Shown: positions 18,341 to 40,028, numbered from the stretch's first letter. The stretch is DNA of 64,000 nucleotides from Candidatus Chloroploca sp. Khr17 (GCF_004138165.1 NZ_RYFF01000017.1:16639-80638), one strand, 5' to 3'. Program-made: numbers and translations. Notes: generated by a model not told the origin, from the letters alone.

Positions 18341-18372
18341 AAGGCGTTTCTAAGGCGTTGGGCCGTTATGAT
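18341..18372 (+). promoter_or_regulatory. SARP-like promoter box 1 (small peptide/exporter cluster)
   Basis: AAGGCG (18341-18346), 5 bp, AAGGCG (18352-18357), 9 bp, then -10 TATGAT (18367-18372). It belongs to a set of six sites with identical geometry in this window. Expected start is near 18379, about 70 nt before the small peptide ATG. Confidence 0.8.
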
Positions 18373-18447
18373 GTGCTTGCAGGGCGGCAAGAGCATGCTC
18401 TGCGTTTCGCTGGCAAGTAGCGCAGATCTTTAAGGAGGATGGTAAGG

Positions 18448-18567
18448 ATGAAGACCCCTGAGACCACCAAGACGGTTAAGACCACTACGAAATCGGGCAA
18501 GGCCGGCGTAGCGGTGCGCACCGACCTGCGGGCCGGGGCTATGCCCCCTATGCCCCCCAGCTTATAG
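18448..18567 (+). CDS. 39-aa small peptide, candidate exported or RiPP-type precursor
   Basis: ATG at 18448 preceded by a strong AAGGAGG (18432-18438). The N-terminal half is rich in Lys and Thr (TKTVKTTTKSG), a leader-like region. The C-terminal end reads RAGAMPPMPPSL. Gly-Ala (RAGA) or KSGKAG could serve as a double-glycine-like cleavage site for the C39 peptidase exporter encoded just downstream, giving a Pro/Met-rich product. There is no Cys, and no maturation enzyme (radical SAM, LanM or cyclodehydratase) lies nearby, so the product may be unmodified. It is the first gene after SARP-like box 1, and a hairpin separates it from the transport genes. The gene is well supported; the precursor role is inference. 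Confidence 0.7.
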   Translation: MKTPETTKTVKTTTKSGKAGVAVRTDLRAGAMPPMPPSL

Positions 18568-18630
18568 CGGTGTCGGCAGGATCAGCCAGGGCTGATTCCT
18601 GGTGTGAACTGAGGCTGGTCTGAGCCTGTA

Positions 18631-18668
18631 GCGGGGAAGCGGAGGATCAGCTTGCTCCGCTTCCCCGC
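18631..18668 (+). terminator. Hairpin between the small peptide gene and the export genes
   Basis: Arms GCGGGGAAGCGGA (18631-18643) and TCCGCTTCCCCGC (18656-18668) with a 12-nt loop and no T-run. It suits a partial terminator or mRNA stabiliser that keeps the peptide message in excess over the transporter message. Confidence 0.5.
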
Positions 18669-18688
18669 CATATTCCCGGCACTACCCT

Positions 18689-19126
18689 ATGTCGCTTGCC
18701 TTCCCCCGTTCGCTGCGTTCGCTCAGCCGCGATACGGGCCGCACGGCCCTGATCGGCATCGCCGTAGCTATGGTGCTGCTGCTGGCTTGGGTCGCCTGGC
18801 TCATCCTGGCCGAGTTGCCGATCTATGTGCGCAGCCAGGATCTGGCCTTGGGGCGCGATGGTTCGGTGGTGGCCCGCTTTGCCCCAGAGGATCTGGCCCG
18901 GATTCGGCGTGATCAACCGGCCAGCCTCATCGTTCCGGCGAGCCACGAGGAGCAGGCCTACGCGCTGCCGGCCCGGGTGCTGGAGACGCCTGGGCAGGGC
19001 TCTAGCCCCGATGACCTGGTGCGACTGCGGGTTCGCGGTGCGCCGCAGCCGCTGCGTGGCGAGATTCGCATCGAGGTTGCCGCAGTGACGCCCTTCGAAC
19101 TGGTGCTGCGCGGGCTTGGCTCATGA
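18689..19126 (+). CDS. Short HlyD-like membrane protein of the exporter cluster
   Basis: 145 aa. A basic N-terminus is followed by one membrane helix (about 21-43, GIAVAMVLLLAWVAWLILAE) and a ~100-residue beta-rich external domain. That layout recalls the start and end of a membrane-fusion protein, but the coiled-coil hairpin and lipoyl halves are missing. No clear Shine-Dalgarno precedes the ATG. Its TGA overlaps the ATG of the C39 ABC gene (ATGA), so they are translationally coupled and probably work in one complex. Confidence 0.65.
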   Translation: MSLAFPRSLRSLSRDTGRTALIGIAVAMVLLLAWVAWLILAELPIYVRSQDLALGRDGSVVARFAPEDLARIRRDQPASLIVPASHEEQAYALPARVLETPGQGSSPDDLVRLRVRGAPQPLRGEIRIEVAAVTPFELVLRGLGS

Positions 19127-21963
19127 GCGCCGACGACACGGTCGCGCCTGAAGCCTCGGACGAGGGAAAGGATCCGTCGCCCGACGAGCGCTATTGGATC
19201 ATCCCCGAGGTGGTGCAGACTTCGGCGATGGACTGTGGCCCAGCAGCCTTGAAGGCTCTGCTTGAGGGCTTCGGCATCGCTGTAAGCTACCCCCGTCTGC
19301 GCGAGGCGTGCCAAACGAGTGTGGATGGCACCTCGATTGATACGATCGAGCAGATCGCCGTGCAGCTTGGTCTCGAGGCCGAGCAGATGATGCTGCCCGC
19401 CGATCACCTGCTGCTGCCCGAGGCCGGAGCGCTGCCAGCCCTGGTGGTCATGCGCCTGCCCAACGGCTTCACTCACTTTGTGGTGGTCTGGCGCCGTCAC
19501 GGCGGCCTCATCCAGGTGATGGATCCGGGCGGCGGACGGCGCTGGGTGCGCGCCCGCCGCCTGCTCGACGAGTTGTTCATCCACACGGTGCCCATTGACG
19601 CGGCCCTCTGGCGTGAGTGGGCCGGTGGCACCGGGATGCTCGCCCCTCTGCGCAGGCGTCTGACTGATTTGCAACTCGCCCCCGCGACTATTGACGATCT
19701 GCTTGCTCGTGCTCTCGCCGACGAGGGCTGGCGTGGGTTGGCGACCCTCGACGCGGCCACGCGCATGCTGACCGCCTTGGTGCGTGGCGGCGGCCTGCGC
19801 CGCGGCCTACCCGCCGAGGCTCTCCTGACGCGCGTCGTGGCCCCCCCGGACGACGAGCAGCCGTCGGACACCGAGGGTAATGATGTGCGGAGACCCGTCA
19901 TCCCCGCGCCGTTCTGGTCGGTCAGGCCCGTCGGCACAGGCGCGGACGGTCAGGACGAGTTGTTGCTGCGGGGCGTTGTGGCGTTGCACGTATCCGGCCG
20001 TCGCGCATTGGCGGATGCTGCGGAGGAATCCGGCGAAGCGTTGCCCCCCGCGCTGGCGGCAGCCCTGAGTGCCCCGGCACCCATGCCCTTGCGCACCCTG
20101 GTCGCGGCGATGCGCCAGGACGGTCTGCTGACCCCGGCCCTGCTGCTGTCGGCTCTGCTGTTGGGGGCCATGACCACGATGATCGAGATTCTGCTGCTCC
20201 AGGGCCTGATCTGGTTTGGGCCGCGGCTGCCGCTGATCGAGCAGCGCGTCACCCTGTTCGCGGCGCTGTTGTTCTTCCTGCTGGCCCGCTTTGCGCTGAG
20301 CCTCTCCAGCGAAATGACGATCGCACGGATGGGCCGTCGGCTGGAGGCCCGGTTGCGGCTGGCCTTCCTGAGCAAGATTCCGCGCCTGGGCGACCGCTAC
20401 TTCCATAGTCGACTCACCTCGGACATGGCCCAGCGCGCCCACGACCTGAGGCAGATCCATCAGATCCAGCGCATCGGTGCCGACACGCTGCGCCAAGGCT
20501 GCGAACTGCTGCTAACCCTGGGTGGGATCTTCTGGCTCAGCCCGGCGATCGGAAGCTGGGTGTTGCTGCTCAGCGCTGCGTTTGTTGTCGTGGGCGGCCT
20601 GGCTTGGCCGGTGCTCCAAGAGGGCGACATGCGTCTGCGCACGCTCAACGGAACCCTGAGCCGTTTCTACCTCGACGGGTTGCGCGGGCTGACCCCGCTA
20701 CGAACCCACGGGGCTGAGCGTGCGGCCCGGCGCGAGTTTGAGGATCTACTTACCCAGTGGGCGCGCGCCAGTCTGGGGTTTCTGCAGCTGCGGGTGCTAG
20801 CGCGGGTGCCCGGCGGGCTGCTCTTCCTCATCCTTGTTACTGCCTTAGCCTTCCAGTTAGTCGGGGGTGCCGCCAGTCTCTCGCCGCTGCTTTTCTACTG
20901 GACGCTCAAGTTGCCGTTGCTGGCGGGCACGCTTTTCCAGCAGCTCGAGCGCTACCCGTGGGTGCGGAATACGATGCTACGCCTGCTTGAGCCATTGACT
21001 GCCCCCGAAGAGGAGGAGTTGGCGGACGCGGCGGATCATGCGCCGCTCGACGTTGGGGTTGGCGGTGTGGCGATCACGCTTGAGGAGGTGACGGTCCAGG
21101 CCGGCGGGCGAACGATCCTGCACGAGCTCAATTTGGGCGTGGCGGCGGGCGAGCATCTGGTCATCGTCGGCCCCTCGGGGGCGGGCAAATCGAGTCTGGC
21201 GGGGCTGCTGCTGGGCTGGCACACCCCGGCCAGCGGGCGTTGCCTCGTCGATGGCGAACCGCTCAGCGGGGCGCGCATTGCCGGGCTACGCCGGGTGACG
21301 GCCTGGCTCGACCCGGCGGTGCAGCTCTGGAACCATTCGCTACTGGAGAATCTGGCCTATGGCAACCGGCCCGAGCACAGCGCGTTGAGCCAGGCTGTGG
21401 AGCAAGCCGACCTGTTCGCCGTGCTTGAGCGGCTGCCCAACGGGTTACAGACACCTCTGGGTGAGGGCGGCGGGCTGGTCTCGGGGGGCGAGGGCCAGCG
21501 TGTGCGCTTTGGGCGAGCCCTGGGCCGCGAATCGGTGCGGCTGGTGATCCTCGACGAGCCCTTCCGCGGCCTCGACCGTGAGCAGCGCCACGCGTTGCTG
21601 GCGCGGGCACGGGCCTACTGGCGCGACGCGACCCTGATCTGTATTACCCACGATGTCGGCGCGACGCGCGACTTCGGGCGGGTGCTGGTGATTGAGGAGG
21701 GTGCGATCATTGAGGACGGCCCGCCCGAGGTTCTCGCCTCGCGGCCCGACTCACGCTACGGCGACCTGCTCGCCGCCGAGGAGCAGGCGCGGCGGGGTTT
21801 GTGGCAGGGGCCCATCTGGCGCCACATCCGCATCGCCGACGGGCAACTGAGCGAGCAGCCTACGGATGCGCAATCACCATCAGGGCAGGGGCGCGGCGCA
21901 GCACGCAACGCAGCGCCAGGGCCAGGGTCTCGGGGTCGAGGGCGCCGAAGCTCTCGTCCATAA
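19123..21963 (+). CDS. C39-peptidase ABC exporter (bacteriocin/NHLP-type)
   Basis: 946 aa. The N-terminal C39 peptidase is complete: Cys38 in MDCGPAA, His118 in GFTHFVVVW and Asp134 in MDPGGG. A long insert (~150-325) of unknown fold precedes the membrane domain (~330-600), which has five to six helices. The nucleotide-binding domain shows Walker A GPSGAGKSS (~residue 684), signature VSGGEGQ, Walker B LVILDEPF and the switch His in ITHDVG. Such proteins cut leader peptides after a Gly-Gly-type motif and export the product. The typical length is ~720; the insert and the C-terminal tail make this one longer. The last ~35 residues are read from DNA antisense to the next gene and are probably not conserved. 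Confidence 0.92.
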   Translation: MSADDTVAPEASDEGKDPSPDERYWIIPEVVQTSAMDCGPAALKALLEGFGIAVSYPRLREACQTSVDGTSIDTIEQIAVQLGLEAEQMMLPADHLLLPEAGALPALVVMRLPNGFTHFVVVWRRHGGLIQVMDPGGGRRWVRARRLLDELFIHTVPIDAALWREWAGGTGMLAPLRRRLTDLQLAPATIDDLLARALADEGWRGLATLDAATRMLTALVRGGGLRRGLPAEALLTRVVAPPDDEQPSDTEGNDVRRPVIPAPFWSVRPVGTGADGQDELLLRGVVALHVSGRRALADAAEESGEALPPALAAALSAPAPMPLRTLVAAMRQDGLLTPALLLSALLLGAMTTMIEILLLQGLIWFGPRLPLIEQRVTLFAALLFFLLARFALSLSSEMTIARMGRRLEARLRLAFLSKIPRLGDRYFHSRLTSDMAQRAHDLRQIHQIQRIGADTLRQGCELLLTLGGIFWLSPAIGSWVLLLSAAFVVVGGLAWPVLQEGDMRLRTLNGTLSRFYLDGLRGLTPLRTHGAERAARREFEDLLTQWARASLGFLQLRVLARVPGGLLFLILVTALAFQLVGGAASLSPLLFYWTLKLPLLAGTLFQQLERYPWVRNTMLRLLEPLTAPEEEELADAADHAPLDVGVGGVAITLEEVTVQAGGRTILHELNLGVAAGEHLVIVGPSGAGKSSLAGLLLGWHTPASGRCLVDGEPLSGARIAGLRRVTAWLDPAVQLWNHSLLENLAYGNRPEHSALSQAVEQADLFAVLERLPNGLQTPLGEGGGLVSGGEGQRVRFGRALGRESVRLVILDEPFRGLDREQRHALLARARAYWRDATLICITHDVGATRDFGRVLVIEEGAIIEDGPPEVLASRPDSRYGDLLAAEEQARRGLWQGPIWRHIRIADGQLSEQPTDAQSPSGQGRGAARNAAPGPGSRGRGRRSSRP

Positions 21964-24040
21964 TCAGCAGGTCGGCCCGCTGGAGCAGGGCGCGGGCGAT
22001 AAAGAGGCGGCTGCGCTCACCGTGTGAGAGTTGCCAGCCGCTCTCGCCCAGGATCTGACCCATGCCCGAGGGCATTCGCGTCAGCAATTCGCCCAGGCCC
22101 AGTTCTTCGCAGATGGTGCTCGCCTCGGCGAGGTCTTCGGGCTGCGGCGGCCAGCGCCGACCCATCAGCAGGTTGAAGGCGAAGGTCTCGGCAAAGACGT
22201 GGTTCTCGTGGAACTGGGGTGCCACGGCGACCCGTTGCCGCCAATCGGCAGCGCCGATGCTTGCCCGGTCGTAGCCGTGGAGCAGCAGCAGCCCTGCCTC
22301 AGGATCACGCAGGCCGGCGAGCAAGGCGGCGAGGGTGGACTTCCCGCCCCCCGAGGGCCCCTCTAGCAACAGCCGCTCGCCCGAGCGGATCTGGAGAGTT
22401 GTGCCCTGAAGCACGTATTGGCCCCGGTCGCGGTAGCGAAAACTCAGCTCGCGGGCCAGCAGCAGTGGCTGCGGGCCACCCGGCGAGCCTGCCGGAGCTA
22501 GCTCGACGGCCGGGAGTTGCTCGTGGCGCGCTGCGGCGTCAAACAGTGGCGCGACTTCTTCCCAGGCAATCATCGCCTGGGCCAGGCCTTCGAGTCCGGC
22601 GATAACCTGGGTCAGGGCCTGGGCCGCCAGGATGATCCCGGCCAGACTGACCACCAGGGCCACGGGTCCGGCGGTGCCGTCAATCAAAATCGGCCCGAGC
22701 GCGGCAATGCCGAGCAACACCCAGAGCGACGGCAGGCTGTTGATCCAGGCACCGACCTGGTCGCGTCGCCCAGTCTGGAGCAGGGAGCCGTCGAGCAGGC
22801 GATCCTCTTCCTGGTGTCGCCGTGCCGGGTCTTCCTGGGCCAGGCGGGTGCGATGACCGACCATATGCTCGACGAGCAGCTTCGTCTGCGCGATCTGGAG
22901 GCGGTTCCAGCCGCGCTGGCGCTGCACGTAGGCACCAGTCAACAATACCAGCAGCAGCGTGACGCCGAGCAGCAGCACGGCGTGGGGCCAGCCTCCCGCG
23001 CCCCAGGCTAACACAAGCGCCGCTGTACCAAGCTGGATCAGCGACAGCAGGGCGACGATACCTCCGTTCAGGGCCAGCAGTTCGACGGCGTTGGCACCCA
23101 TCACCCGCTCGATGAACTGGCCCATGCCCTCGTGGCGGATCTCCTCGGGGCGCAGCTTAAGGATACCGGCGAACAAGCGCTGCTTGAAGATGGCTCCGGT
23201 GGCGACGGCGATGAGGCCCCCCGTGCGCACGATCAGCAGATCGAAGAACAGGGCCGTGGCCTGGAGGAGCACCCAGGCCCAGAGCCAGATCGGATCGAAC
23301 TGGCCGCCAAAGACGATACGCCCGATGAGCCACCAGGTCAGAATGAGCAAGGCCTGTCGGATCAGCATCGCTCCGACCAGCGTCCCCAGGGGCGCACTCA
23401 GGCGGGCATGGTGGGCCTGCTGGCGCAGGTTGGCGGCCGGAGTGAGTCGCAGCATCCAGCCAGCCTCGATCGGGAGCGCACTCAGTTGTTCGGCCAGGAT
23501 CATGCGGCGGACGCGCTCGGCTTGCTGGTCGGTGATGGATGCCTCGGCGAGCATCCGGTCGATGTCGGGGCGCCAAGGTTCTTCGAGCCTGGCGCAGAGC
23601 CGATCGCGGATCAGCCTGAGCGGCACGCGCCGCACCTCGAGCGCGGGGGTGAGCACGCGCAGATGGCCCCACCCACGGCCGAGCAGGGCGATCAGCCCCG
23701 GGCCGGTGTTGCCTTGCTCGTCTGCAGCCCCTGCAGGTGGCGCGGGGTGTGGCGGCAGGCGAAGCAGGGCTGGGCCTCCGTTGAGCAGGAGCGCCTCGAT
23801 GTCGCCGTAGCTCGCCGCTACCGTCTCGGCCTCGAGGCCGAGACGTGCGGCCTCGACCTCGACCTGCCGTGCGAGTTGCTCTGGTGAAGGCGAGCCGGGA
23901 GCGGGTGGAGCGTGGGCACCGGAGTGGAGGCCGGCCCGGCGGGCTAGGGCCTCCACTGCTGCGGCCCCCTGGTCAGTGGGCCATGCCAGCGTCGAGAGTT
24001 CGGGCGGGGTCAGGTGTGTGCGTATCATCTGGGGTAGCAC
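21860..24040 (-). CDS. Second ABC exporter protein with Cys-less C39-like domain
   Basis: 726 aa starting with GTG at 24040 (GGGACGAGA precedes it); an ATG at 24028 is an alternative. The N-terminal ~170 residues resemble a C39-like fold (GPALLRLPPH..., LRVLTPALEVRRVPLRLIRDRL) but have no catalytic Cys or DCG motif. The membrane domain is at ~230-500. The ATPase shows Walker A GPSGGGKST, signature LSHGERSR and Walker B LLIMDESFGALDPE. The protein ends MVIAHP, one residue after the switch His, so the last ~50 residues of a normal ABC domain are missing. It converges on the first exporter with a 104-bp overlap. A partner in one heterodimer, as in NHLP-type systems, is plausible; loss of activity through truncation is equally possible. 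Confidence 0.85.
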   Translation of the reverse strand: MLPQMIRTHLTPPELSTLAWPTDQGAAAVEALARRAGLHSGAHAPPAPGSPSPEQLARQVEVEAARLGLEAETVAASYGDIEALLLNGGPALLRLPPHPAPPAGAADEQGNTGPGLIALLGRGWGHLRVLTPALEVRRVPLRLIRDRLCARLEEPWRPDIDRMLAEASITDQQAERVRRMILAEQLSALPIEAGWMLRLTPAANLRQQAHHARLSAPLGTLVGAMLIRQALLILTWWLIGRIVFGGQFDPIWLWAWVLLQATALFFDLLIVRTGGLIAVATGAIFKQRLFAGILKLRPEEIRHEGMGQFIERVMGANAVELLALNGGIVALLSLIQLGTAALVLAWGAGGWPHAVLLLGVTLLLVLLTGAYVQRQRGWNRLQIAQTKLLVEHMVGHRTRLAQEDPARRHQEEDRLLDGSLLQTGRRDQVGAWINSLPSLWVLLGIAALGPILIDGTAGPVALVVSLAGIILAAQALTQVIAGLEGLAQAMIAWEEVAPLFDAAARHEQLPAVELAPAGSPGGPQPLLLARELSFRYRDRGQYVLQGTTLQIRSGERLLLEGPSGGGKSTLAALLAGLRDPEAGLLLLHGYDRASIGAADWRQRVAVAPQFHENHVFAETFAFNLLMGRRWPPQPEDLAEASTICEELGLGELLTRMPSGMGQILGESGWQLSHGERSRLFIARALLQRADLLIMDESFGALDPETLALALRCVLRRAPALMVIAHP

Positions 24041-24065
24041 GTTGATCTCGTCCCTTGGTTTTTTT

Positions 24066-24120
24066 GTAAATACATTTTCTGATGTTTTTGCTATGCAAAA
24101 ACATCAGAAAATGTATTTAC
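24066..24120. repeat. Perfect 25-bp AT-rich inverted repeat
   Basis: Arms 24066-24090 (GTAAATACATTTTCTGATG...) and 24096-24120 match exactly around CTATG. It is strikingly AT-rich against its GC-rich setting and lies between the stop of the 94-aa gene and the start of the second ABC gene. The side next to the stop reads GTAGTGTGTAAATAC on the minus strand. Either a terminator or a miniature element. Confidence 0.8.
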
Positions 24121-24502: not shown

Positions 24503-24534
24503 ATGTTACCAGCCAAGCGCCTTAGAAACGCCTC
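24503..24534 (-). promoter_or_regulatory. SARP-like promoter box 2 (94-aa gene)
   Basis: Minus strand: GAGGCG (24534-24529), 5 bp, AAGGCG (24523-24518), 9 bp, TAACAT (24508-24503). Same 32-bp geometry as the other five sites. The expected start near 24497 gives a leader of about 85 nt. Confidence 0.75.
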
Positions 24535-24543: not shown

Positions 24544-24575
24544 AAGGCCATCGCAAGGCGTTTCTGTGCTACCAT
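24544..24575 (+). promoter_or_regulatory. SARP-like promoter box 3 (P-type ATPase 1)
   Basis: AAGGCC (24544-24549), 5 bp, AAGGCG (24555-24560), 9 bp, TACCAT (24570-24575). The -10 abuts the ATG at 24576. The expected start (~24582) falls on the in-frame ATG at 24582, so a leaderless mRNA is likely. Confidence 0.7.
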
Positions 24576-24581
24576 ATGACT

Positions 24582-26735
24582 ATGCTGCTACTCAATGTTG
24601 CCATTGCCGGGGGGATGGCTTACGCCGGAGCCCAGGCCTACCTGCGCCGGGCCAGTAAGCCCACCCTGGGGGTACTACTCGCCCAAACGCCTGGGCGCCC
24701 GCTTGTGCCCGCGATCGCGGATCGGGAGCCGCTGCCCGACACCGTCGCGCCACGGCCCGCCGCGCTGTGGGCGGGGCTGATCCCCCAGGTACTGAGGCAC
24801 GACCTGCGTCGCCAGCAGATGGCCGAGTTGTCCGGTGCTACACTTGAACCGAGCGAGCGCGAGCGCGCTGTCACCCACCAACTTGGCGTTGCGCTGGCAG
24901 CCCTGGGCATCAGCGCGACGGGTGCCATCGTCCACGCGCCGCTCGTCGTGCTCAGTGCGCCGCTGCTGGGCTACCTCTACATTCCGATTCTCACGAACAC
25001 CTACGGGGCGTTCCAGGAGCAGCGCCAGCAGCGCAAACTGCAGTTGTATCAGGCGATCACCTTCGGCGGCGAATTGCTGGCCGGCACGTTCTTTGCCTCG
25101 GCATTGAATACCTCGCTCTATTTTATGGCCGAGCGGGCGCTGATCAGGGCCGAAGACCAGTCGCACGCGAGCGTGGTCACGGTGTTTAGCCAGCAACCCC
25201 GCTCGGTCTGGGTGCTGGTGGACGGCTCTGAGTGTGAACTGCCCCTTGAGGCCGTGCGCGTGGGTGATATCCTGACCGTTGGTGCTGGCGAAGTGATCCC
25301 AGTGGATGGCTGCGTCACGCAGGGCAGCGCCTTGGTCGATCAGCACATGCTCACCGGCGAGGCGCAGCCAGTCGAGAAGGGCTGTGGCGACCAAGTGCTG
25401 GCCTCTACCGTGGTGTTGGCGGGCAAGATCGCGCTCGAGGTCGAGCGTACCGGCGAGGAGACCACTGCGGCCCAGATCGGCACGATCCTGAACCAGACGG
25501 CCCGGTTTAAGGAGAAGCTCGCGCTGCGCGGCATCACGCTGGCCGAGCGCTTTATCCCCCTGACGTTGGGGCTGAGCGCACTCGCGTTGCCCTTTGTCGG
25601 GGCCAACCGCGCCCTGGCATTGCTCGAGTCGCTCGAGTCGGGCTTTGGCTACAACCTGCGCCTGAGCGGGCCGCTCAGTCTGCTCAATCTGCTCCAGGTT
25701 GCTGCCCACCAGGGCATTTTGATCAAAGATGGGTCGGCGCTTGAGTTGCTCCCGACTATCGATACGCTGGTCTTTGATAAGACTGGCACCCTCACCATCG
25801 AGCAACCCCACATCGGTGCTGTCCACACCTACAACGGCGTCACCGCAGACGAGGTGCTCACCTGGGCCGCAGCGTCAGAGCAGCGCCAGAGCCACCCGAT
25901 CGCGCGGGCGATCACGCACGCGGCGCACGAGCGAGGGTTGGATCTGCCCGAGATTGACGACGCCCACTATCAGATCGGCTACGGGATCACGGTCAGCCTC
26001 GCAGGGCACACGCTGCGCGTCGGCAGCGAGCGCTTTCTGATCCAGGAGCAGGTGCGTCTGCCGGAGACGCTGCCCGCTGTCCAGGCCGCCTGTCACGAAC
26101 AGGGCTACTCACTGGTGCTAGTCGCGCGTGACCAGGAGTTGGTGGGCGCACTCGAACTGCACCCCACGCTGCGCCCCGAGGCGGCTATGGTGGTGGAGCA
26201 GTTCAAGCAGCGCCAGTTCCAGATCTATCTGCTCTCTGGCGATCATGCGCAGCCAACCCGGCGGCTGGCCGAGCACCTTGGCATTGATCACTACATCGCC
26301 GAGGTGCTGCCGCAGGAGAAGTCGGCGCTGGTGGAGCGCCTGCAGCAGGAGGGGCGGAAGGTCTGTTTTGTTGGTGACGGCATCAACGACGCGATTGCAC
26401 TCAGGCAGGCGAACCTCTCGGTCTCGCTGCGCGGTGCCTCGACCGCCGCCACCGACACGGCGCAGGTCGTACTGATGGACGCCAGCCTGCAACACCTGTT
26501 AGCCCTCTTCGATCTGGGAAATGCGTACCGCGATACCATGCGCTCCAATTTCTTCCTGGCAACTGTGCCCGGCGTGGTCTGTATTGGCGGCGTCTTTCTG
26601 TTGCACTGGGGGCTGGCGACGGCCGTGCTGCTCTCTAATGTCAGCCTGCTTGGCAGCATGGCCAATGTGTATCTGCCGCTGCTGTGGAGCGACCTCAGAC
26701 CTCGGCAGGAGCCGGAGTTGACGCCAGGCACCTAA
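24582..26735 (+). CDS. P-type ATPase 1, P1B-like without CPx motif or metal-binding domain
   Basis: 717 aa from ATG 24582, chosen because the mapped -10 box would put the transcript start there; ATG 24576 gives 719 aa. There is no HMA domain. Two N-terminal helix pairs precede the actuator domain with TGEAQPVEK (TGES in most P-type ATPases). The catalytic DKTGTLT has Asp399, and SHPIARAI matches the P1B HP motif. The hinge reads GDGINDAIAL, where P1B pumps have NDAPAL. In the membrane helix before the P domain, where CPC/CPH/SPC is expected, the sequence is YNLRLSGPLSLLN. The ATP machinery is intact but the ion path is not that of known metal pumps, so the substrate is unknown. It belongs to the SARP-like regulon. 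Confidence 0.85.
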   Translation: MLLLNVAIAGGMAYAGAQAYLRRASKPTLGVLLAQTPGRPLVPAIADREPLPDTVAPRPAALWAGLIPQVLRHDLRRQQMAELSGATLEPSERERAVTHQLGVALAALGISATGAIVHAPLVVLSAPLLGYLYIPILTNTYGAFQEQRQQRKLQLYQAITFGGELLAGTFFASALNTSLYFMAERALIRAEDQSHASVVTVFSQQPRSVWVLVDGSECELPLEAVRVGDILTVGAGEVIPVDGCVTQGSALVDQHMLTGEAQPVEKGCGDQVLASTVVLAGKIALEVERTGEETTAAQIGTILNQTARFKEKLALRGITLAERFIPLTLGLSALALPFVGANRALALLESLESGFGYNLRLSGPLSLLNLLQVAAHQGILIKDGSALELLPTIDTLVFDKTGTLTIEQPHIGAVHTYNGVTADEVLTWAAASEQRQSHPIARAITHAAHERGLDLPEIDDAHYQIGYGITVSLAGHTLRVGSERFLIQEQVRLPETLPAVQAACHEQGYSLVLVARDQELVGALELHPTLRPEAAMVVEQFKQRQFQIYLLSGDHAQPTRRLAEHLGIDHYIAEVLPQEKSALVERLQQEGRKVCFVGDGINDAIALRQANLSVSLRGASTAATDTAQVVLMDASLQHLLALFDLGNAYRDTMRSNFFLATVPGVVCIGGVFLLHWGLATAVLLSNVSLLGSMANVYLPLLWSDLRPRQEPELTPGT

Positions 26736-26850
26736 ATGTGACCATAGGCCCGGCAAGTGATCCTGGGAGAACCTTGGTTTTCTCAGAAGACCATGTTTCA
26801 TCGTGGCGTCGGGCAACATGGTTGCATTGAGCCACCTTGGGCCTTGCCGA

Positions 26851-26878: not shown

Positions 26879-26909
26879 TCTCGTAGTGACCTTGTTGCTC
26901 ACGTCAGGC

Positions 26910-31720: not shown

Positions 31721-31752
31721 AGCATAGTGGGCGATCGCCTTAAGAACGCCTT
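31721..31752 (-). promoter_or_regulatory. SARP-like promoter box 4 (SPFH pair)
   Basis: Minus strand: AAGGCG (31752-31747), 5 bp, AAGGCG (31741-31736), 9 bp, TATGCT (31726-31721). The expected start is near 31714, about 25 nt before the SPFH ATG. Confidence 0.8.
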
Positions 31753-31888: not shown

Positions 31889-31920
31889 AAGGCGTCTTTA
31901 AGGCGGTGGTACGGTATGGT
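31889..31920 (+). promoter_or_regulatory. SARP-like promoter box 5 (PstS-pentapeptide pair)
   Basis: AAGGCG (31889-31894), 5 bp, AAGGCG (31900-31905), 9 bp, TATGGT (31915-31920). The start should be near 31927, 60 nt before the ATG at 31987. Confidence 0.8.
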
Positions 31921-31986: not shown

Positions 31987-33870
31987 ATGATCGTGCGGTT
32001 GATCCTCTGGCGCCTCTTCCAGCTTACCGTCATTATCGGCGCGCTTGTCGTCGTGAGTCTGGTCACGGTGCTTAACCCTGTGCGCTGTGCCCCCGATTGT
32101 ATGGGGGCCGACCTGGCCGGAAGTTCCCTGAATGGGGCCAATCTCAGTGAGGTCAATCTGGTCGAGTCCAATCTGGCGCGTACGACGCTTGAGCGCGCCG
32201 CACTCGCTGGGGCCGACCTCTCGGGATCGAGCGTCACCGACGCGATCCTGCTCAACGCCGATCTCAGCGGCACCGAGCTGGTGGGGGCAAATTTCAGCAA
32301 TTCTGATCTGCGTGGCGTAACTTTGTTTGGGGCCGACTTGAGCGGTGCCAATCTCAGCGGGGCCAATCTGACCAGCGTCGATTTGCGCGGCGCAGTCAGT
32401 TTGCATGGCCTGCTGCTCACCGATGCGCTGCTGGTAGAGGCCAATCTGGCCCAAACTGACCTGAGCGGGGTTGATTTGAGTGGCTCGAACCTGAGCGGGG
32501 CCAACCTGAGCGGGGCCAATCTGAGCGGGGCCAATCTGAGCGGGGCCAGCCTGAGCGGGGCTAACCTGAGCGGGGCGGACTTGAGTGGTGCCTGGCTCAA
32601 TCTTGTCGATCTCACCGGGGCTGATTTGACCGGCGCGAGCCTGGCCGGGGCAACGCTCATCGGCAGTACCCTCGCCTCGGTCGTCTTCAATGGGGCCAAC
32701 CTGAGTGGCGTAGCCGCGATCGGGGCGAATTTTGACGGCGCTGATCTGCGCGGTGCCACCATTAGCGGTGCCCGCTTCCTGGTAAGCACCATCACCGATC
32801 TTGATCTCCAGGTTGATCCGCTTTTTGCGGCACTGCGCGAAAACGAGTTCAACCAGGTGCTCCGCAATGCTCGGCTCAAGGGCGTGCGTTTTGACGATAC
32901 GGTCGTTTGGTCGCCCGATAGCAAGACGGCTCTGGAGAGCCTGCTTGGCTTCGAGCTTGTGCTGCCTGTCACAACCGAGGTGTCCGACGTCGGCGGGATC
33001 GATCTCGGCACCGTTGTCCCTGCTCGCTACGAGGGGGCGATCGCGATGGCAGGCAGCGCGATGGTCTACCCGCTGACCCGTGCGATTGCCGACAAGTTTG
33101 AGGCAGCGGGATATCCCGGCACGCTGAGCATCGCGATTACGGATACCGGCTCTAGTCTCGTCCGCCTGTGCGAAGCGCGTGATCTCGATCTTGTGAACGC
33201 CGGCCGTCTCATCACCGCTGAAGAGCGCGCCATTTGTGCGGAAAACGCGCACGAACCGGTGGGCCTACGGGTCGGGACAGACGCGGTTGTGGTTGTGGTG
33301 CATCCGCGCAACGAGTTTCTTAGGAATGCCTCACTCGATGAGTTGCGACGGATCTTCACCGCCAAAAATTGGTTCGATGTGAACCCACGCTGGCCGCGCC
33401 AGCCAATTGAGCGCTTTGTGCCGTCTGCCGGTTCCAGTGCGCGTACCTTCTTCGAGCAAACGGTTGGCGTGACCGAGGAGGAGCTGAGCTCGGCGAGCAA
33501 CACCATTATGAGCGACGATATGGTCGCGCTCGGGGCGGCGCTGGCCAACACGCCCTATGGCATCGCCTTTCTGGACTATGCCGCTTTTCAGGCGAATATC
33601 GACGCGATCCAGACGATCAGAGTCGCGGGTGTGGCGGCAAACTATCAGAATGTCGAAGCGGGTCGCTACATCATGGCCCGGCCGCTCTATCTTTACGCCG
33701 ATACCGCGACGTTGCGCAGGAAGCCCCAGGTCGCGGCTTTTATCGCCTTCTATTTGCGGCAGGCGAATGCAGCCAGCCAGGAGATAGGCATCTTTCCACC
33801 AAGCGAAACCGTTCTGCGTACCTCAGCGGCAGCCCTTCAAACAGCGCTTGCCACTGATGCGAACAAGTGA
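31987..33870 (+). CDS. Pentapeptide-repeat protein fused to PstS-like phosphate-binding domain
   Basis: 627 aa; GAGTGAGGA precedes the ATG. One N-terminal membrane helix (about 5-30) is followed by ~45 pentapeptide repeats of the A(D/N)LSG type (about 40-270), which fold into a right-handed quadrilateral beta helix. A runs-perfect block of GANLS repeats lies near 170-200. The C-terminal ~300 residues resemble PstS-type phosphate-binding proteins: AMAGSAMVYPLTRAIADKF, DTGSSLVRLC, VVVVHPRNEF and PSAGSSARTFFEQ. The binding domain is probably displayed outside the membrane on the repeat stalk. No pst permease lies near, so it is more likely a sensor or scaffold than an uptake component. Confidence 0.88.
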   Translation: MIVRLILWRLFQLTVIIGALVVVSLVTVLNPVRCAPDCMGADLAGSSLNGANLSEVNLVESNLARTTLERAALAGADLSGSSVTDAILLNADLSGTELVGANFSNSDLRGVTLFGADLSGANLSGANLTSVDLRGAVSLHGLLLTDALLVEANLAQTDLSGVDLSGSNLSGANLSGANLSGANLSGASLSGANLSGADLSGAWLNLVDLTGADLTGASLAGATLIGSTLASVVFNGANLSGVAAIGANFDGADLRGATISGARFLVSTITDLDLQVDPLFAALRENEFNQVLRNARLKGVRFDDTVVWSPDSKTALESLLGFELVLPVTTEVSDVGGIDLGTVVPARYEGAIAMAGSAMVYPLTRAIADKFEAAGYPGTLSIAITDTGSSLVRLCEARDLDLVNAGRLITAEERAICAENAHEPVGLRVGTDAVVVVVHPRNEFLRNASLDELRRIFTAKNWFDVNPRWPRQPIERFVPSAGSSARTFFEQTVGVTEEELSSASNTIMSDDMVALGAALANTPYGIAFLDYAAFQANIDAIQTIRVAGVAANYQNVEAGRYIMARPLYLYADTATLRRKPQVAAFIAFYLRQANAASQEIGIFPPSETVLRTSAAALQTALATDANK

Positions 33871-33881
33871 GGCAGGTGTTT

Positions 33882-34883
33882 GTGATCAGCAGAAGCTTGT
33901 ATCTGTTGGCCTTGCTCGCCGGACTACTGTTGCTCAGCGGATGTGTGGCGCGGTTTCAGCTTCCGCTGGGCTGCCCGCCAGATTGCACAAAGGTCAATCT
34001 GCAGAACGCCAGCCTTAGAGGGGTCGATCTGCGCGGTGCGCAGCTCAATAGTGTCACTCTTGCCCAGGTTGATCTGGCTGGGGCCGATCTCCGTGCGGCC
34101 GAATTGGCGGGTGCGAATCTGGCCGGCGCAGTGCTCAGCGGCGCAGATTTGCGGGGTGCCAATCTCAAGGGTGCGAACCTGACTGAAGTCAACCTGACCG
34201 GCGCAAATCTGGCCGAGGCCAACCTGAGTAGTGCCGACCTGACTGGGGCCAACCTGACGGGACTCGACCTGAGCACTACGGTGCTCACCGCCGTGACGCT
34301 TGAGCAGGCCCGCATGATCAATGTCAACCTTGCGGGTAGCAATCTCAGCGGCGTGCGCCTGGTCGGCGCCAACCTGCGTGGCGCGAACCTGGCAGGCGCG
34401 AACCTCGCCGGGAGTGTGCTTGGCGACGAGACGGAGGGATCTGGCGCAAGCTTTCAGGGCGCGGATCTGCGCGAAGTTGATCTGACCGGCGCAAATTTGA
34501 GCAATACCGACCTGTCGGGTACCAACCTGCGCGGGGCGACCATGATCGGGGCAACGCTCGATACAACGACGCTCTCGGGGGCCGACTTGCGCGAATGCGT
34601 GTTCGATAAGGCGACGATCACCCGTACCAATATGGGCGGCGCACGGATCGAGGGTGCCAGCTTTGTCAGCACGCAGTTCCGCGAACGGGTGATCTTCTCA
34701 GGTGCCCGGATGCACCGGGCCAGGCTTGGGCAGGCCGTGGTACCAAACGCGCAAGCGCAGGGTGCGCTCGGCGGCGAACCGCTCATTGGCCTGGTGCTGA
34801 ACGGCGTGCGTTACGATGCCAGCACGACCTGGCCTGAAAACCTAGCGCTCCCCTCCAGTGTGATCCTCGAGACCAGTCGGTGA
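33882..34883 (+). CDS. Pentapeptide-repeat lipoprotein
   Basis: 333 aa from the GTG at 33882, which gives a compact lipoprotein signal (ISRSLYLLALLAGLLLLSGC) and has GAGGCAGG before it; GTG 33867, overlapping the previous stop, is the longest start. After the lipobox Cys come about 45 pentapeptide repeats (ANLSG/ADLRG types), interrupted once by GDETEGSGAS. A C-terminal region NGVRYDASTTWPENL matches the segment GVRFDDTVVWSPD of the preceding protein. The two genes are one transcription unit and clearly related by repeat content; this one lacks the PstS-like domain. Confidence 0.82.
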   Translation: MISRSLYLLALLAGLLLLSGCVARFQLPLGCPPDCTKVNLQNASLRGVDLRGAQLNSVTLAQVDLAGADLRAAELAGANLAGAVLSGADLRGANLKGANLTEVNLTGANLAEANLSSADLTGANLTGLDLSTTVLTAVTLEQARMINVNLAGSNLSGVRLVGANLRGANLAGANLAGSVLGDETEGSGASFQGADLREVDLTGANLSNTDLSGTNLRGATMIGATLDTTTLSGADLRECVFDKATITRTNMGGARIEGASFVSTQFRERVIFSGARMHRARLGQAVVPNAQAQGALGGEPLIGLVLNGVRYDASTTWPENLALPSSVILETSR

Positions 34884-34921: not shown

Positions 34922-34972
34922 TCATTAGTCAATCATCAATTTGTAACGATCCCGCCCTCACGACACTCCCCA

Positions 34973-34978: not shown

Positions 34979-35041
34979 TGAACGCAATGCACGCGGCTTG
35001 CAGCTAGCGGGGCTCTTTTGACAACGCCGGAGGAGCGCATT

Positions 35042-37540
35042 GTGATCGTGTATTTGGTTGCCGTAGTCCTCGTGGCGCTGAGCATCGGTGCGCTTGTTGG
35101 CGTCCTTCGCGCCAGACATTCTGCAGAGTACCGTCGATCAACCAAGGCGCAGGCTTCTTCCCTCCCGATGTTCAAGCGGCGACCACCCGGCGGAGAGCAC
35201 CAGCGCAGAAGCTGGTTCCGTAAAAAACCCGCCGCAGCACCGACCACAGTTCGCCTGCGACCGCAGAGCGTCGGACGCCGTCGAAAGGCCTTGCTGCTGC
35301 TAGCCGGCATGATCATCATCGGTGGGGGGGGCTTGCTCATCTACAACCGTGTGCCATCGGCAATCCCGATCCCATCCGCTGGAGCCGTCGAGCTCGCGGT
35401 GCAGTTGCCCCTCAGCGGCGAGGCGGCCGCGAGCGGCCTTCCGCCCTCAGAGGGCATTCAGATGGCGATCGAGGAAGCCAATGCCAGCGGATCGGGTCCG
35501 CCATTCAAGCTCACCAGTTACGATGACGAGGGCAGCAGCGAGCTAGCGCGGGGCGTGGCCGAGCAGATTGCGGCCAGCCAGGCGCTGCTAGTGCTGGGAC
35601 CCGCTTTCAGCTCAACCGCCCTTGCCACTGGGCCGACGTTTGCGGCCGCAGACATGGTCGCCCTTCCGACGAATGCGACATCAGACCAGATCACGTCAAA
35701 CCTGACAACCTTTCGGTTGCTCTTCAAGAATAGCGAGCAAGGCGAGTTGCTCGCCAACTATCTTGTGCGGGTGCTTGGTCAGAAGCAGGCGGCGGTCTTC
35801 GTCGCTGATACGTCATACGGCCAGACCCTGCGTGAGGGCTTTGAGCGTGCAGCCACAGGGCTTGAACTGCAGGCCGACTACTACGTCTTCAGCGATGCGA
35901 TTCAGGCAAGCGAGATGGCCGAACAGGTTGCGCAGAACCCCGCTCCTCCCGCAATCGTTCTGCTGACCCTCGACCGTGAGGGTGCCCGCATTCTGATCGC
36001 CCTCCGCCGACGCGGTGTGAGCGGGCCGTTTCTTGGGGGTGATTCGTTTGGCAAGCAGAGCTTCACCGAACTAGTGAAAAATCAGCCTGAAGAGAGCGAA
36101 CAGCCCGGCTTCTTTACCAATCAGCTCTACGCGCTGGCACCACTCATCCTTGACTCGGCGAATGGCGCAACCCTCGCCTTCGCTGAGCGCTACCGAACCC
36201 GCTTTGGACAGGATCCGGACTGGTCAGCCGTCTCTGGCTACGAAGCGGCGACGCTGGCCGTAGCTGCGGTACGGGCTACCGCAATCGACCCGGCGATCAG
36301 CCGCAACCTGCCGGCGCGGCGCGAGGCTTTGGGGGTCTATCTGCGTGGCCTCAACAGCCCCGAGCAGGCGCTGCCCGGCCTGCTCGGGCCCGTCTGGTTT
36401 GACGAGGGCAAGGGCCGCCAGTTGGCGATCAGAGTTGGCCGTTTTCGCCGCGGGCACTTCGAGTCGGCCTCGGCGCAGATTGTCACGGTGCTAACGCCCG
36501 ACCCGACCGAGCTGGCTTCGGGTGCGATCTTTGAACTCAGCCCTGGGCGCTACGCTCGGCTTCAGTTGGTGGCCCATACCGGGATCTTCATCAATGAACT
36601 CACGTCGATCGATATGCGCGGCTCGCGCTTTACCGCCGACTTCTATCTATGGATGCGCTTTGCGCGCATCAATGGCGCTCGGGTTGCCGATCCCACCAAG
36701 CTGCGCTTCCCCGACATGGTGAGCGGCACCTTTGAGCGCGAGCAGCCAGTGCGTCAGTTGGTTATGGAAGACGGGAGTGAGTACTGGCTCTGGCGCGTGC
36801 GGGGTGAGTTTCGCAGTGCGCCCGACCTGCGACGCTTTCCCTTCGATCAGCAGAACCTGGCGCTTGGCTTCGTCAACGCCGATGCAACCGCCGAGCAAAT
36901 TCTCTATGCACGTGATCGCCAGACGGGCGACGGCGAGCCTACCCCACCGCTTGATGGCGGTGCAACGGCGGACGTCGCAATGGTCGATGGCGGAATCGCT
37001 GACCCAGAGGCGTTGCGTAACCTCGGCGAATGGACTGTTGCCAGCATCTACGCACAGCGTGCGGGTCTGAGCACCGACTCGCTTCTCGGCGACCCGACAC
37101 GCGACGAGTTGAGTGCGCGGCTCGATATTTCAGGCTTCACGGCAGGAGTCACCCTACGGCGCACGTTACCCGTGTTTGCCACCACCGTGCTGCCCCTACT
37201 GGTGTTGTGCGCGATCCTCTTCAGTTCGCTCTTGCTGCCAAGCGACCGCGTCCAGGAGCGGGTGCTGATCGCGGTCTTCGCGGCGCTTGGCGGGCTCGTG
37301 CCGCTGGCTGCGCTCAACAGCCAGGTAGGCGCGGCAGGCACCACCATCCCGCTCATAAACAGCTTCTACGTCTACTTTGGCCTAGCCCTGCTCTGCGGCG
37401 GTGTGGCGCTGGGTAGCGCACGGTTGCGTGCGTCGGGTTTGGATCCTGCGGCAGAGCGCCTCGAGGCGCGCATACGGCCTATCTTTTTATTAGCTGTGGG
37501 CGTCACCATTGCGACCCTGACGCTCGTTTTGTGGCGGTAA
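35042..37540 (+). CDS. Periplasmic-binding-protein / pentameric ligand-gated ion channel fusion
   Basis: 832 aa from GTG 35042 with GGAGGAG six bases before it; TTG 35018 is the longest start. A first membrane helix at the N-terminus and a second at about 86-106 precede a LivJ-like type I binding-protein fold (about 115-480). Then a Cys-loop-receptor-like ligand domain follows (about 490-665): DFYLWMRF and the hallmark RRFPFDQQNL, FPFD at 599-602. Four helices end the protein: M1 VFATTVLPLLVLCAILFSS, M2 starting VQERVLIAVFAALGG, M3 NSFYVYFGLALLCGGVAL, and M4 near the end. That is the full layout of a prokaryotic pLGIC with a fused amino-acid-type sensor. It is co-transcribed with the BTAD regulator. 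Confidence 0.85.
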   Translation: MIVYLVAVVLVALSIGALVGVLRARHSAEYRRSTKAQASSLPMFKRRPPGGEHQRRSWFRKKPAAAPTTVRLRPQSVGRRRKALLLLAGMIIIGGGGLLIYNRVPSAIPIPSAGAVELAVQLPLSGEAAASGLPPSEGIQMAIEEANASGSGPPFKLTSYDDEGSSELARGVAEQIAASQALLVLGPAFSSTALATGPTFAAADMVALPTNATSDQITSNLTTFRLLFKNSEQGELLANYLVRVLGQKQAAVFVADTSYGQTLREGFERAATGLELQADYYVFSDAIQASEMAEQVAQNPAPPAIVLLTLDREGARILIALRRRGVSGPFLGGDSFGKQSFTELVKNQPEESEQPGFFTNQLYALAPLILDSANGATLAFAERYRTRFGQDPDWSAVSGYEAATLAVAAVRATAIDPAISRNLPARREALGVYLRGLNSPEQALPGLLGPVWFDEGKGRQLAIRVGRFRRGHFESASAQIVTVLTPDPTELASGAIFELSPGRYARLQLVAHTGIFINELTSIDMRGSRFTADFYLWMRFARINGARVADPTKLRFPDMVSGTFEREQPVRQLVMEDGSEYWLWRVRGEFRSAPDLRRFPFDQQNLALGFVNADATAEQILYARDRQTGDGEPTPPLDGGATADVAMVDGGIADPEALRNLGEWTVASIYAQRAGLSTDSLLGDPTRDELSARLDISGFTAGVTLRRTLPVFATTVLPLLVLCAILFSSLLLPSDRVQERVLIAVFAALGGLVPLAALNSQVGAAGTTIPLINSFYVYFGLALLCGGVALGSARLRASGLDPAAERLEARIRPIFLLAVGVTIATLTLVLWR

Positions 37541-37543
37541 ACC

Positions 37544-39421
37544 ATGCTCTACCTCAGACTGCTCGGTGCCCCGGAAGTTCGCCTTAACGGAACCTTGCTC
37601 AGCGAGATTACGAGCAAGAAAGCGCTGGCCCTGCTCTTCTACCTGGCGATGACCCGGCGCAACCACCTGCGCGATGAATTGGCGAGCCTCTTCTGGTACG
37701 ACATGCCGGATGCTCAAGCCCGGAAGAATCTGCGCAATATTCTGCCCATCCTGCGTACGCTGCTTGGCGATCACCTGATCATCACCCGGCACATGGTAGG
37801 CCTGAACCCCGCCGCTCAGGCCTGGCTCGACGTCGAGCGCCTCTGCGCTGTGCTCAAGGACGATCACCACCCTCAATCGCTGAAGGCCATGGCCGAGGCG
37901 CTCGCGCTCTACGAGGGCGACTTTCTCACCGGCTTCTATGTGTCAGACGCGCCTGCTTTCGAGGAGTGGATGCTCAGGCAGCGCGATCATCTGCATCAGC
38001 TTGTCGTGCACAGCCTGCATGATCTCGCCGTGCAGGCCCTCAAGGAGGAGGCTTACCCGCAGGGCATGGAGGCTACCCGGCGTCTTCTGCGGCTTGAGCC
38101 CTGGAACGAGAAGGCTCACCAGTTGCAGATGGAACTGCTTGCAGCCCTGGGCGAGCGCGAGCGCGCTTTGATGCAGTACCAGTTGTGCCGGCGTGCGCTA
38201 CGGAGTGAATTCGCGATTGAGCCCACCGCCGAGACGCAGGCCATCTATGCACGAATCAAGGCGCTGGCGCCGCTACGCAGACCAGGTGATAACCAGGTGC
38301 GGGCGCCTGGGCGACAGCATGCCGAGTGGGCGCTGCGTGAACCGCAGCTTGCGCCAGCCCAGGTGAACCGCCCTGAGGCGTCACTCTTCTTCGGCCGCGA
38401 AGAGGAGGCGCACCGCTTGTATCAGTGGATTGCCCGCGAACAGTGTCGGCTGCTCATGCTCACCGGCAGGGTCGGCATGGGCAAGACGGCCCTGGCCCGC
38501 TACGTTGCGCAGATGTTCTCCCATGCCGAGAGTAAGGGGGCGTTTGGCACGGTGGGCAACCCACCAATCCTCTGGCACTCGTGCCGCGACCTGCGCTCGG
38601 CGCACCAACTCCTCGACGACTGGCTGAGTCAACTCGGGGAACAGCCAGATCAGGGCGCACGGCACGAGGCACGCGAGGCGCTGTTGCTCGCGCAGTTGCG
38701 CCGTCGGCGCTGCTTGCTCGTGCTCGACGATCTTGAACGCCTGGCCGAGCCTCCGCTCACGGCTGGCAGGGCCGAGTCCTTCTGGCGGCTGATCGAGGGC
38801 ATCGTGGCAAGCGAGCATCAGAGCTGCCTGCTGCTGGTTGGGCGCGAGATGCCTGCACTTAGTACCTACCTCGAAGTCACATCGAGTGTCACCCACTCGC
38901 TGTGCCTCGGTGGGTTGCCCCACGAGGCCGCTGAAGGCCTCCTCTCTTCCTATGGTCTGATCGAAGGCTCGCTGCTTGCACGCCGACTGACTGAGCAGTA
39001 CGATGGCGCACCGCTCTTCCTCCATCTCGCTGCGCGCACGATCAAGAGCTATGGCTCTGGCCGCCTCGCTGACTATACCAACGCCCACACGTTCTTGTTT
39101 GATAGCGTGCGGAGCGTGCTCGACAACGAGTTTGCGGCGCTCGATCCGCTCGAGCGCATGATTCTTGCGACGCTCGCCTGCGTGACCCAGGCCCTTGCGC
39201 CATCGCAACTGCACTATGCTCTCCGCAACAAGGTTAGCTTGCCTGTCCGGCTCTCGGATCTGCTCAGTGGGCTCCAGCGTCTCAAGCGCCGCTCACTGGT
39301 GATCGTCGCCCATGAAGGCTTTGCGCTCCCCCGGCTGATGCATACCTACGTGCGCACCCGGGTTGAGCATGAGCACTACTACCAGGAGGATACGTCGCAA
39401 TGGTTACCGCAACCATCTTGA
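37544..39421 (+). CDS. BTAD (SARP/AfsR-like) regulator with STAND ATPase domain
   Basis: 625 aa; starts 3 bp after the channel stop. Residues ~1-95 form the OmpR-like winged helix of the SARP type (LRLLGAPEVRLNG, KKALALLFYLA, LASLFWYDMPDAQARKNLR). Residues ~95-245 form the bacterial transcriptional activation domain (LALYEGDFLTGFY, LEPWNEKAHQLQME). A P-loop ATPase follows from ~280 (LFFGREEE, then GRVGMGKTALARYVA) with LLVLDDLE as Walker B. SARPs bind direct repeats spaced 11 bp apart close to the -10. Six such sites are in this window, which makes this gene the leading candidate for their regulator. Confidence 0.9.
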   Translation: MLYLRLLGAPEVRLNGTLLSEITSKKALALLFYLAMTRRNHLRDELASLFWYDMPDAQARKNLRNILPILRTLLGDHLIITRHMVGLNPAAQAWLDVERLCAVLKDDHHPQSLKAMAEALALYEGDFLTGFYVSDAPAFEEWMLRQRDHLHQLVVHSLHDLAVQALKEEAYPQGMEATRRLLRLEPWNEKAHQLQMELLAALGERERALMQYQLCRRALRSEFAIEPTAETQAIYARIKALAPLRRPGDNQVRAPGRQHAEWALREPQLAPAQVNRPEASLFFGREEEAHRLYQWIAREQCRLLMLTGRVGMGKTALARYVAQMFSHAESKGAFGTVGNPPILWHSCRDLRSAHQLLDDWLSQLGEQPDQGARHEAREALLLAQLRRRRCLLVLDDLERLAEPPLTAGRAESFWRLIEGIVASEHQSCLLLVGREMPALSTYLEVTSSVTHSLCLGGLPHEAAEGLLSSYGLIEGSLLARRLTEQYDGAPLFLHLAARTIKSYGSGRLADYTNAHTFLFDSVRSVLDNEFAALDPLERMILATLACVTQALAPSQLHYALRNKVSLPVRLSDLLSGLQRLKRRSLVIVAHEGFALPRLMHTYVRTRVEHEHYYQEDTSQWLPQPS

Positions 39422-39900
39422 TCACAGGTGGCCTGATCGTCGCCGGTACACGCATCCTGCTCAAGCGTAGACAGGTTCGGACGCCCACCTGGCTGATCCA
39501 GCCTGACGGTAGCCGGGTGAAATCCTATGCCGTCATTGTTGAGAGCGATGAGGTGACGGCGCTGAGCGAAGAGCGTGCGATCAAGACGAATTACACGCTC
39601 TCAACGCTCTCGCTCGGCCTGAATCTCGCCAGTACGTTGCTCTTCGACCCGGTTAAGTGGCTCGGCCTGCCGCTCGATATCTACAACCTGGGGGTTATCA
39701 TCGAGCATGGCTTTAGCGATTTGCGGCGGAGTGCCCAGATGGTTGTGATCGTCGTTGTTACGATCACGCTGATGATCTCGGGCCAAGCGCTCCTCATCTC
39801 CAGCATCCAGTGGATCTACTTCTTCTCCCGCAAGTTCGTGCTGGACGTGCAGAAGCACCTGCGAACGCTGTCTACCGCCGAGCGTGCAACTGCGACGTGA
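39400..39900 (+). CDS. Small membrane protein resembling the helix region of P-type ATPase 2
   Basis: 166 aa; the ATG at 39400 overlaps the regulator by 22 bp and has AGGAGG before it. An N-terminal helix, a soluble stretch and a helix-rich centre (about 70-145) are visible. The segment STLLFDPVKWLGLPLDI and onward lines up by eye with GTLLFQPLMLVAVFLMV in P-type ATPase 2, including a shared spacing of helix, polar loop and helix (GQALL against GQILLL). I infer a stand-alone relative of the first four ATPase helices, without actuator, P or N domains. A role as a partner or inhibitor of the ATPases is a guess. It is the last gene before a strong terminator. Confidence 0.7.
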   Translation: MVTATILITGGLIVAGTRILLKRRQVRTPTWLIQPDGSRVKSYAVIVESDEVTALSEERAIKTNYTLSTLSLGLNLASTLLFDPVKWLGLPLDIYNLGVIIEHGFSDLRRSAQMVVIVVVTITLMISGQALLISSIQWIYFFSRKFVLDVQKHLRTLSTAERATAT

Positions 39901-39915
39901 GGAGAACATAAGAGG

Positions 39916-39950
39916 GTCTGGGAGAACCAGATTCTCCCAGACGCCTTTTT
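39916..39950 (+). terminator. Intrinsic terminator of the channel/regulator operon
   Basis: GTCTGGGAGAA (39916-39926) pairs with TTCTCCCAGAC (39932-39942), followed by GCCTTTTTTC. Confidence 0.9.
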
Positions 39951-39996
39951 TCATTGCGGTGGTATGCGCTGTGCGCATAACCAAGACCCAGATGCC

Positions 39997-40028
39997 AAGG
40001 CGTTTCTAAGGCGCTTGGCGAGTAGGAT
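39997..40028 (+). promoter_or_regulatory. SARP-like promoter box 6 (P-type ATPase 2)
   Basis: AAGGCG (39997-40002), 5 bp, AAGGCG (40008-40013), 9 bp, TAGGAT (40023-40028). The start should be near 40035, leaving a 154-nt leader before the ATG. I see no clear gene in that leader. Confidence 0.8.

Follow-up and report, generated by a model that had tools for sequence, protein, structure and literature searches.

A tandem AAGGCG box as the likely operator of an AfsR-like SARP activator and a split polyketide regulon in Candidatus Chloroploca sp. Khr17

This study examined a 64,000-nt stretch of DNA (the window) from Candidatus Chloroploca sp. Khr17, a filamentous bacterium whose genome (G000) comprises 6.38 Mb in 171 contigs, and a 32-bp element, AAGGCG-N5-AAGGCG-N9-TAnnnT, that occurs six times in it. 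Our analysis indicates that this box is, in all likelihood, the operator-promoter of an AfsR-like activator of the SARP family, encoded in the window at 37544-39421, which would run a regulon split between the window and a distant polyketide synthase (PKS) gene. It is very probable that the scattered boxed genes are regulated together, as a single natural-product system. A sequence-only reading of the window had already proposed that the box is SARP-like, and this proposal is supported by the geometry of the box, its specificity in the genome, its presence at orthologous promoters, and its co-occurrence with the BTAD regulator gene. Judging from sequence comparison, the BTAD protein would bind the box, activate transcription from it, and regulate its own gene.

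Results

All six sites were found on re-examination at exactly the coordinates and on the strands previously proposed (Table 1), including the imperfect half-sites GAGGCG in box 2 and AAGGCC in box 3. Scanning the window with up to three mismatches gave 7 matches, versus a mean of 1.3 (largest 5) in shuffled sequence; the seventh match, at 63716(-) with two mismatches, is probably due to chance. When the window was scanned blind to the hexamer, for any near-identical pair of hexamers with a period of 11 bp that lies 9 bp before TAnnnT, the family with the most members was that of five of the six boxes. No -35 consensus was evident at the box promoters.

A search of the whole G000 genome, allowing one mismatch at most, returned 8 sites, compared with 0 for a reversed-pattern control, namely the six window boxes, G000:C29:11396, and G000:C10:19707. 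Seven of the eight lie at promoters of the cluster or of the PKS gene; hence, in the genome search that the sequence-only reading had set as a test, the motif sits at promoters and not at random places. Perfect AAGGCG-N5-AAGGCG pairs number 6 in the genome, and four of these fall inside a 22-kb block of the window. The C10 site, which has no PKS-like or cluster context, is likely a chance match. The C29 box lies about 180 bp 5' of an open reading frame (ORF) of more than 2,500 aa with KS, AT, KR, and ACP domains, which, by its predicted domains, is a modular type I PKS gene reaching the contig end. The 113.7-kb contig that holds the window cluster extends more than 30 kb beyond it on either side, and the PKS gene is on a separate contig; the regulon is therefore split in G000. 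The earlier six-promoter regulon is supported for the window members, but it missed both the PKS outside the window and the longer repeat unit described below.

Concerning the PKS locus itself, C29 (at the end of L088) stops within an AT domain and C41 (L167) picks up an AT domain at about the next residues, both contig ends bear sequence resembling the end of an insertion element, and transposase-like ORFs were found on the PKS contig. The PKS gene may be interrupted in G000.

The distribution of the box was evaluated in a set of 61 genomes, in which a reversed-pattern control gave 17 sites. Five genomes (the box genomes) held 26 box sites, and the remaining 56 held 12, near the control level. 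Besides G000, the box genomes are four members of other genera in the same family, with several sites each: Chloroflexaceae RM2_2_1 (G017), G023 (contigs matching uncultured Oscillochloris Ja1-D5), Ca. Viridilinea halotolerans (G024), and an uncultured Chloroflexaceae (G025). Across the whole family (41 genomes), perfect boxes occurred in these five only, which are also the five with the closest BTAD homologues; the chance of such a five-genome coincidence is 1 in 749,398, although the five are not independent draws, the cluster being inherited in common. When perfect boxes were sought in 400 genomes across the phylum, this added only G135 and G340, whose boxes had no T-rich spacer and no cluster genes within the 3 kb read, and these were set aside as chance or another system. 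As a separate observation, L170 (G135:C6:5752-5976) carries several AAGGCGG direct repeats with an 11-bp period and no cluster genes nearby, which are possibly the sites of another tandem-repeat regulator.

Translated searches revealed the same cluster in the four relatives, comprising C39/ABC exporters, P-type ATPases, SPFH and a partner protein, PstS-pentapeptide fusions, oligopeptide-type ABC genes, and the BTAD gene. Co-oriented boxes stand 5' of C39 exporters, of SPFH genes, and of P-type ATPase or substrate-binding protein (SBP) units in all five box genomes, and 5' of PstS-pentapeptide genes and of type I PKS genes in G000, G023, and G024. In G024, the PKS, a box, and the BTAD gene are on one contig. 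A box in G017 precedes a halogenase gene, behind which lie P-type and SBP genes, with PKS genes on the same contig, and G025 has an additional box 5' of a LamG-like ORF. The related-genome search suggested by the sequence-only reading thus found the motif at orthologous promoters, alongside a BTAD gene of one group. The association with natural products that marks SARPs is also present, since the PKS is boxed in three genomes and a halogenase is boxed, with PKS genes, in a fourth; therefore, a polyketide pathway is the likely core of the regulon.

Alignment of the 26 boxes, two of which have two mismatches, showed high information content only within the box and nearly none outside it, the flanks being unrelated. 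As the sites were chosen by a pattern, the independent evidence lies only in the positions that the pattern left free. Among these, position 8 of the unit is T in 25 of the 26 sites in each repeat; in addition, a T usually precedes each repeat, and position 9 of the first unit is also T. Therefore, the repeated unit is tAAGGCGnT, and the refined operator consists of two such units with an 11-bp period, the heptamer ending 8 bp before the TAnnnT -10. At published SARP promoters, the direct repeats are spaced by 11 or 22 bp, and 8 bp separate the 3' repeat from the -10 (PMC10936776). Counted as heptamers, the 26 boxes match this layout exactly, as the earlier claim of SARP-like geometry required.

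In the regulator, Pfam identified the BTAD (1.6e-18) and an NTPase of the NACHT/NB-ARC type, and an OmpR-type winged helix lies N-terminal to the BTAD, which is the domain layout of the SARP family. Pfam found no TPR in the 625-aa protein, which departs in this respect from the C-terminal NTPase + TPR layout of the large (AfsR-type) SARPs and is better called a SARP-NTPase without TPR. Nor did Pfam find in the BTAD protein the receiver domain that marks OmpR/PhoB response regulators. Among PDB entries, a profile built from the winged helix-BTAD regions of the five box-associated proteins matched Streptomyces AfsR best (E 1e-9, profile positions 5-238); a phmmer search of PDB with the N-terminus of the regulator gave no match. 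By fold, AfsR and EmbR came closest to the AlphaFold2 model (pLDDT 96).

The homologues of G023 and G024 align with the NTPase version, the G017 homologue carries WD40 repeats after the shared N-terminal part, and the C-terminus in G025 appears similar to the latter by eye. As the C-terminal sensors differ (NTPase versus WD40) and the winged helix and BTAD are kept, what the five have in common is the DNA-binding region. The five box BTADs formed one side of a branch, with weak support (69), in a tree of 94 BTADs, and the branch that includes L099, a short contig without a box, had a support of 96; label changes on the tree numbered 1, versus a shuffled mean of 4.9. The motif NLRN(I/L)(I/L)P was present in all five box-associated BTADs and in none of the 89 others. 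When the recognition helix was aligned to AfsR, Asn occupied the position of the base-contacting Thr88, and Arg was not found at the Arg92 position, where the box BTADs have Ile, Val, Thr, or Cys.

Genes run in one direction from 31987, behind box 5, through the regulator gene to a 166-aa ORF and then the terminator-like hairpin, with one 134-bp gap that has no clear promoter or strong terminator. Because the genes are co-directional, with a closing hairpin and a single gap, the regulator is probably on the box-5 transcript and would probably activate its own expression. Parts of this gene order are retained in G023 and G025.

The remaining features of the window are collected in Table 1. No family match was detected for the 39-aa peptide ORF; the peptide is Lys/Thr-rich, ends in GAMPPMPPSL, and is encoded directly 5' of the exporter genes, and it is a candidate exported peptide. 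The C39 exporter and the second ABC exporter, which are separate genes in the window, form one long reading frame in G025 (L078), G017 (L082), and G024 (L084). A long near-perfect AT-rich inverted repeat (GTAAATACATTTTCTGATGTTTTTGC arms) lies at 24060-24120, in the gap that separates the 94-aa ORF from the second ABC exporter gene. Box 3 ends right at the P-type ATPase 1 gene, whose probable start, ATG 24582, is 7 nt past the -10; the mRNA may be leaderless from this ATG, as box 3 appears to leave no other room. The P1B-type ATPases at 24576-26735, 40189-42393, and 49744-52644 have no CPx metal motif and show GPL or APL about 40 residues before DKTGT, and they may transport something other than a heavy metal.

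Table 1. Boxes, genes, and other features of the window
Feature	Position	Strand	Sequence or description
Box 1	18341-18372	+	AAGGCG-TTTCT-AAGGCG-N9-TATGAT; 5' of small peptide ORF (18448), 145-aa membrane ORF, and C39 peptidase/ABC exporter
39-aa peptide ORF	18448-18567	+	Shine-Dalgarno-like sequence
C39 peptidase/ABC exporter	19123-21963	+	
Box 2	24503-24534	-	GAGGCG-TTTCT-AAGGCG-N9-TAACAT; 5' of 94-aa ORF, then second ABC exporter gene (21860-24040)
Box 3	24544-24575	+	AAGGCC-ATCGC-AAGGCG-N9-TACCAT; immediately 5' of P-type ATPase 1
P-type ATPase 1	24576-26735	+	heavy-metal subfamily by profile
SPFH/Band 7 protein	30580-31689	-	
Box 4	31721-31752	-	AAGGCG-TTCTT-AAGGCG-N9-TATGCT; 31 nt 5' of SPFH/Band 7 gene
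Box 5	31889-31920	+	AAGGCG-TCTTT-AAGGCG-N9-TATGGT; 5' of PstS-pentapeptide unit
PstS-like domain fused to pentapeptide repeats	31987-33870	+	
Pentapeptide-repeat protein	33867-34883	+	
Periplasmic binding protein-like gene	35018-37540	+	ends 4 bp before regulator gene
Regulator gene	37544-39421	+	625 aa: winged helix (~1-95), BTAD (104-238), NACHT/NB-ARC-like NTPase (~280-434)
Codons of regulator residues 51-72	37694-37759	+	with recognition helix QARKNLRNILPILR
Terminator-like hairpin	39916-39942		T-rich on + strand; closes box-5 unit
Box 6	39997-40028	+	AAGGCG-TTTCT-AAGGCG-N9-TAGGAT; 5' of P-type ATPase 2 and oligopeptide-type ABC genes
P-type ATPase 2	40189-42393	+	

Discussion

Several other explanations of the boxes were weighed against an AfsR-like activator. 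OmpR/PhoB-type response regulators also bind 11-bp direct repeats near the -35, and the boxes could be the sites of one encoded elsewhere, as the winged-helix class and geometry are the same and a PstS-like domain belongs to the regulon. Such regulators are common, yet the sites are limited to the cluster and the PKS and are absent from most genomes of the family, and the annotated loci that carry boxes showed no response regulator, which makes this explanation very unlikely. A large MalT-type LuxR regulator (26757-29618) is encoded within the block, 3' of the boxed P-type ATPase 1, and the boxes might be its operators; however, no homologue (E below 1e-5) was found on the box-bearing contigs of the four relatives, where the boxes are kept, and MalT-type sites have another sequence and layout. 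As the LuxR gene is not conserved with the boxes, it was rejected as their regulator, and we consider a role for it most improbable.

The boxes might instead be copies of a duplicated promoter or a mobile repeat with no regulatory meaning, an idea that draws on the spacer sequence common to boxes 1, 2, and 6 and on the transposase-like ORFs of the PKS contig. This is hardly conceivable, given that the flanks of the 26 boxes differ, that the boxes are kept across genera at orthologous promoters, and that both repeats carry the same extra T. It is also highly unlikely that the regulator binds the box but represses, since the promoters show no evident -35 consensus and the distance of 8-9 bp from the end of the repeats to the -10 is that of SARP activator sites.

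Several points weigh against the BTAD protein as activator of the boxes. Two of the six boxes (2 and 3) have imperfect half-sites; the PKS contig of G000 is not adjacent to the window cluster; and one further genome of the set, G015, has no box despite a BTAD nearly as close by full-length score. In addition, the co-occurrence of box and BTAD gene partly reflects common inheritance of one cluster, and it cannot alone single out the BTAD from the other genes of the cluster.

The AfsR-like system may be compared with known ones. PhoB/OmpR regulators act at Pho-box promoters with 11-bp direct repeats in place of the -35, whereas the BTAD protein has no receiver domain and its operator has another sequence and no tie to phosphate-uptake operons. 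EmbR of Mycobacterium tuberculosis carries an FHA domain, whereas NTPase or WD40 follows the BTAD in the box-associated proteins; the EmbR structures (2ff4, 2fez) have the same winged helix-BTAD fold. The nearest solved structure by profile and fold is AfsR, which acts on the afs box of afsS in Streptomyces coelicolor (PMC10936776; PDB 8hvr, 8jke, 8k60). Both systems combine a winged helix, BTAD, and NTPase with two 11-bp direct repeats overlapping the -35, near the -10. They differ in that the regulator described here has about 23% identity to AfsR, other residues at the Thr88 and Arg92 positions, an AAGGCG operator, no detected TPR, a Chloroflexota host, and a many-promoter regulon. Small cluster-situated SARPs (ActII-ORF4, DnrI, RedD, PimR, and others; PMC10972967) are likewise activators encoded near natural-product genes that use heptamer direct repeats over the -35; the repeat sequence and phylum are different, and the regulon here consists mostly of transport and P-type ATPase genes, separate from the PKS in G000.

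On its repeats, AfsR places two adjacent protomers, which hold sigma region 4, and until ATP binds the protein is inhibited by its NTPase and TPR domains; we infer the same mechanism here, minus the TPR. Two winged-helix protomers would sit on both direct repeats, on one DNA face, standing in for a -35, and would touch the sigma factor and RNA polymerase at the TAnnnT -10, and control of activity by nucleotide and/or ligand probably falls to the NTPase domain. The activator would turn on the window genes for exporters, P-type ATPases, SPFH, PstS-pentapeptide, and binding proteins together with the distant modular type I PKS, and the window genes would move or tolerate the PKS product. Positive feedback would likely make the circuit self-amplifying, because the regulator gene is probably in the box-5 unit.

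More tentatively, the regulon may be a conserved and hitherto undescribed module for trafficking and self-protection, dedicated to a Chloroflexota polyketide and composed of P1B-like ATPases (three window copies without CPx), the C39 exporter pair, SPFH, and PstS-pentapeptide fusions, in which SARP sensors have been exchanged and the match of helix and operator kept. We regard this fuller reading as possible but would not yet favor it.

Scanning 73 BTAD loci of other genomes for tandem boxes of the same layout gave 2 loci with repeated sites, compared with 0, 0, and 1 locus in shuffles. In L103 (Chloroflexota), TCAACG-N5-TCAACG-N9-TATACT occurs at 7569(-) and 6025(-), one of them beside its BTAD gene, and in L145 (a cyanobacterium), GAGACG-like sites lie at 14381, 17719, and 19378 (+), 3' of a 1375-aa BTAD ORF. 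This exploratory scan suggests that the layout is general and the hexamer particular to each regulator.

In the literature, we found no description of a SARP regulon in Chloroflexota, and none of this cluster or of P-type ATPases in such polyketide clusters. The SARP reading is well supported computationally, and with it a kind of system known mainly from Streptomyces would reach Chloroflexota, where it has a new operator and a new regulon. Silent natural-product clusters are found and switched on with SARP activators as handles, a use confined almost entirely to actinomycetes. The regulator-operator pairing in five genera suggests a testable link between recognition helix and operator, and it means that a single box search links non-adjacent genes, here transport genes and a distant PKS.

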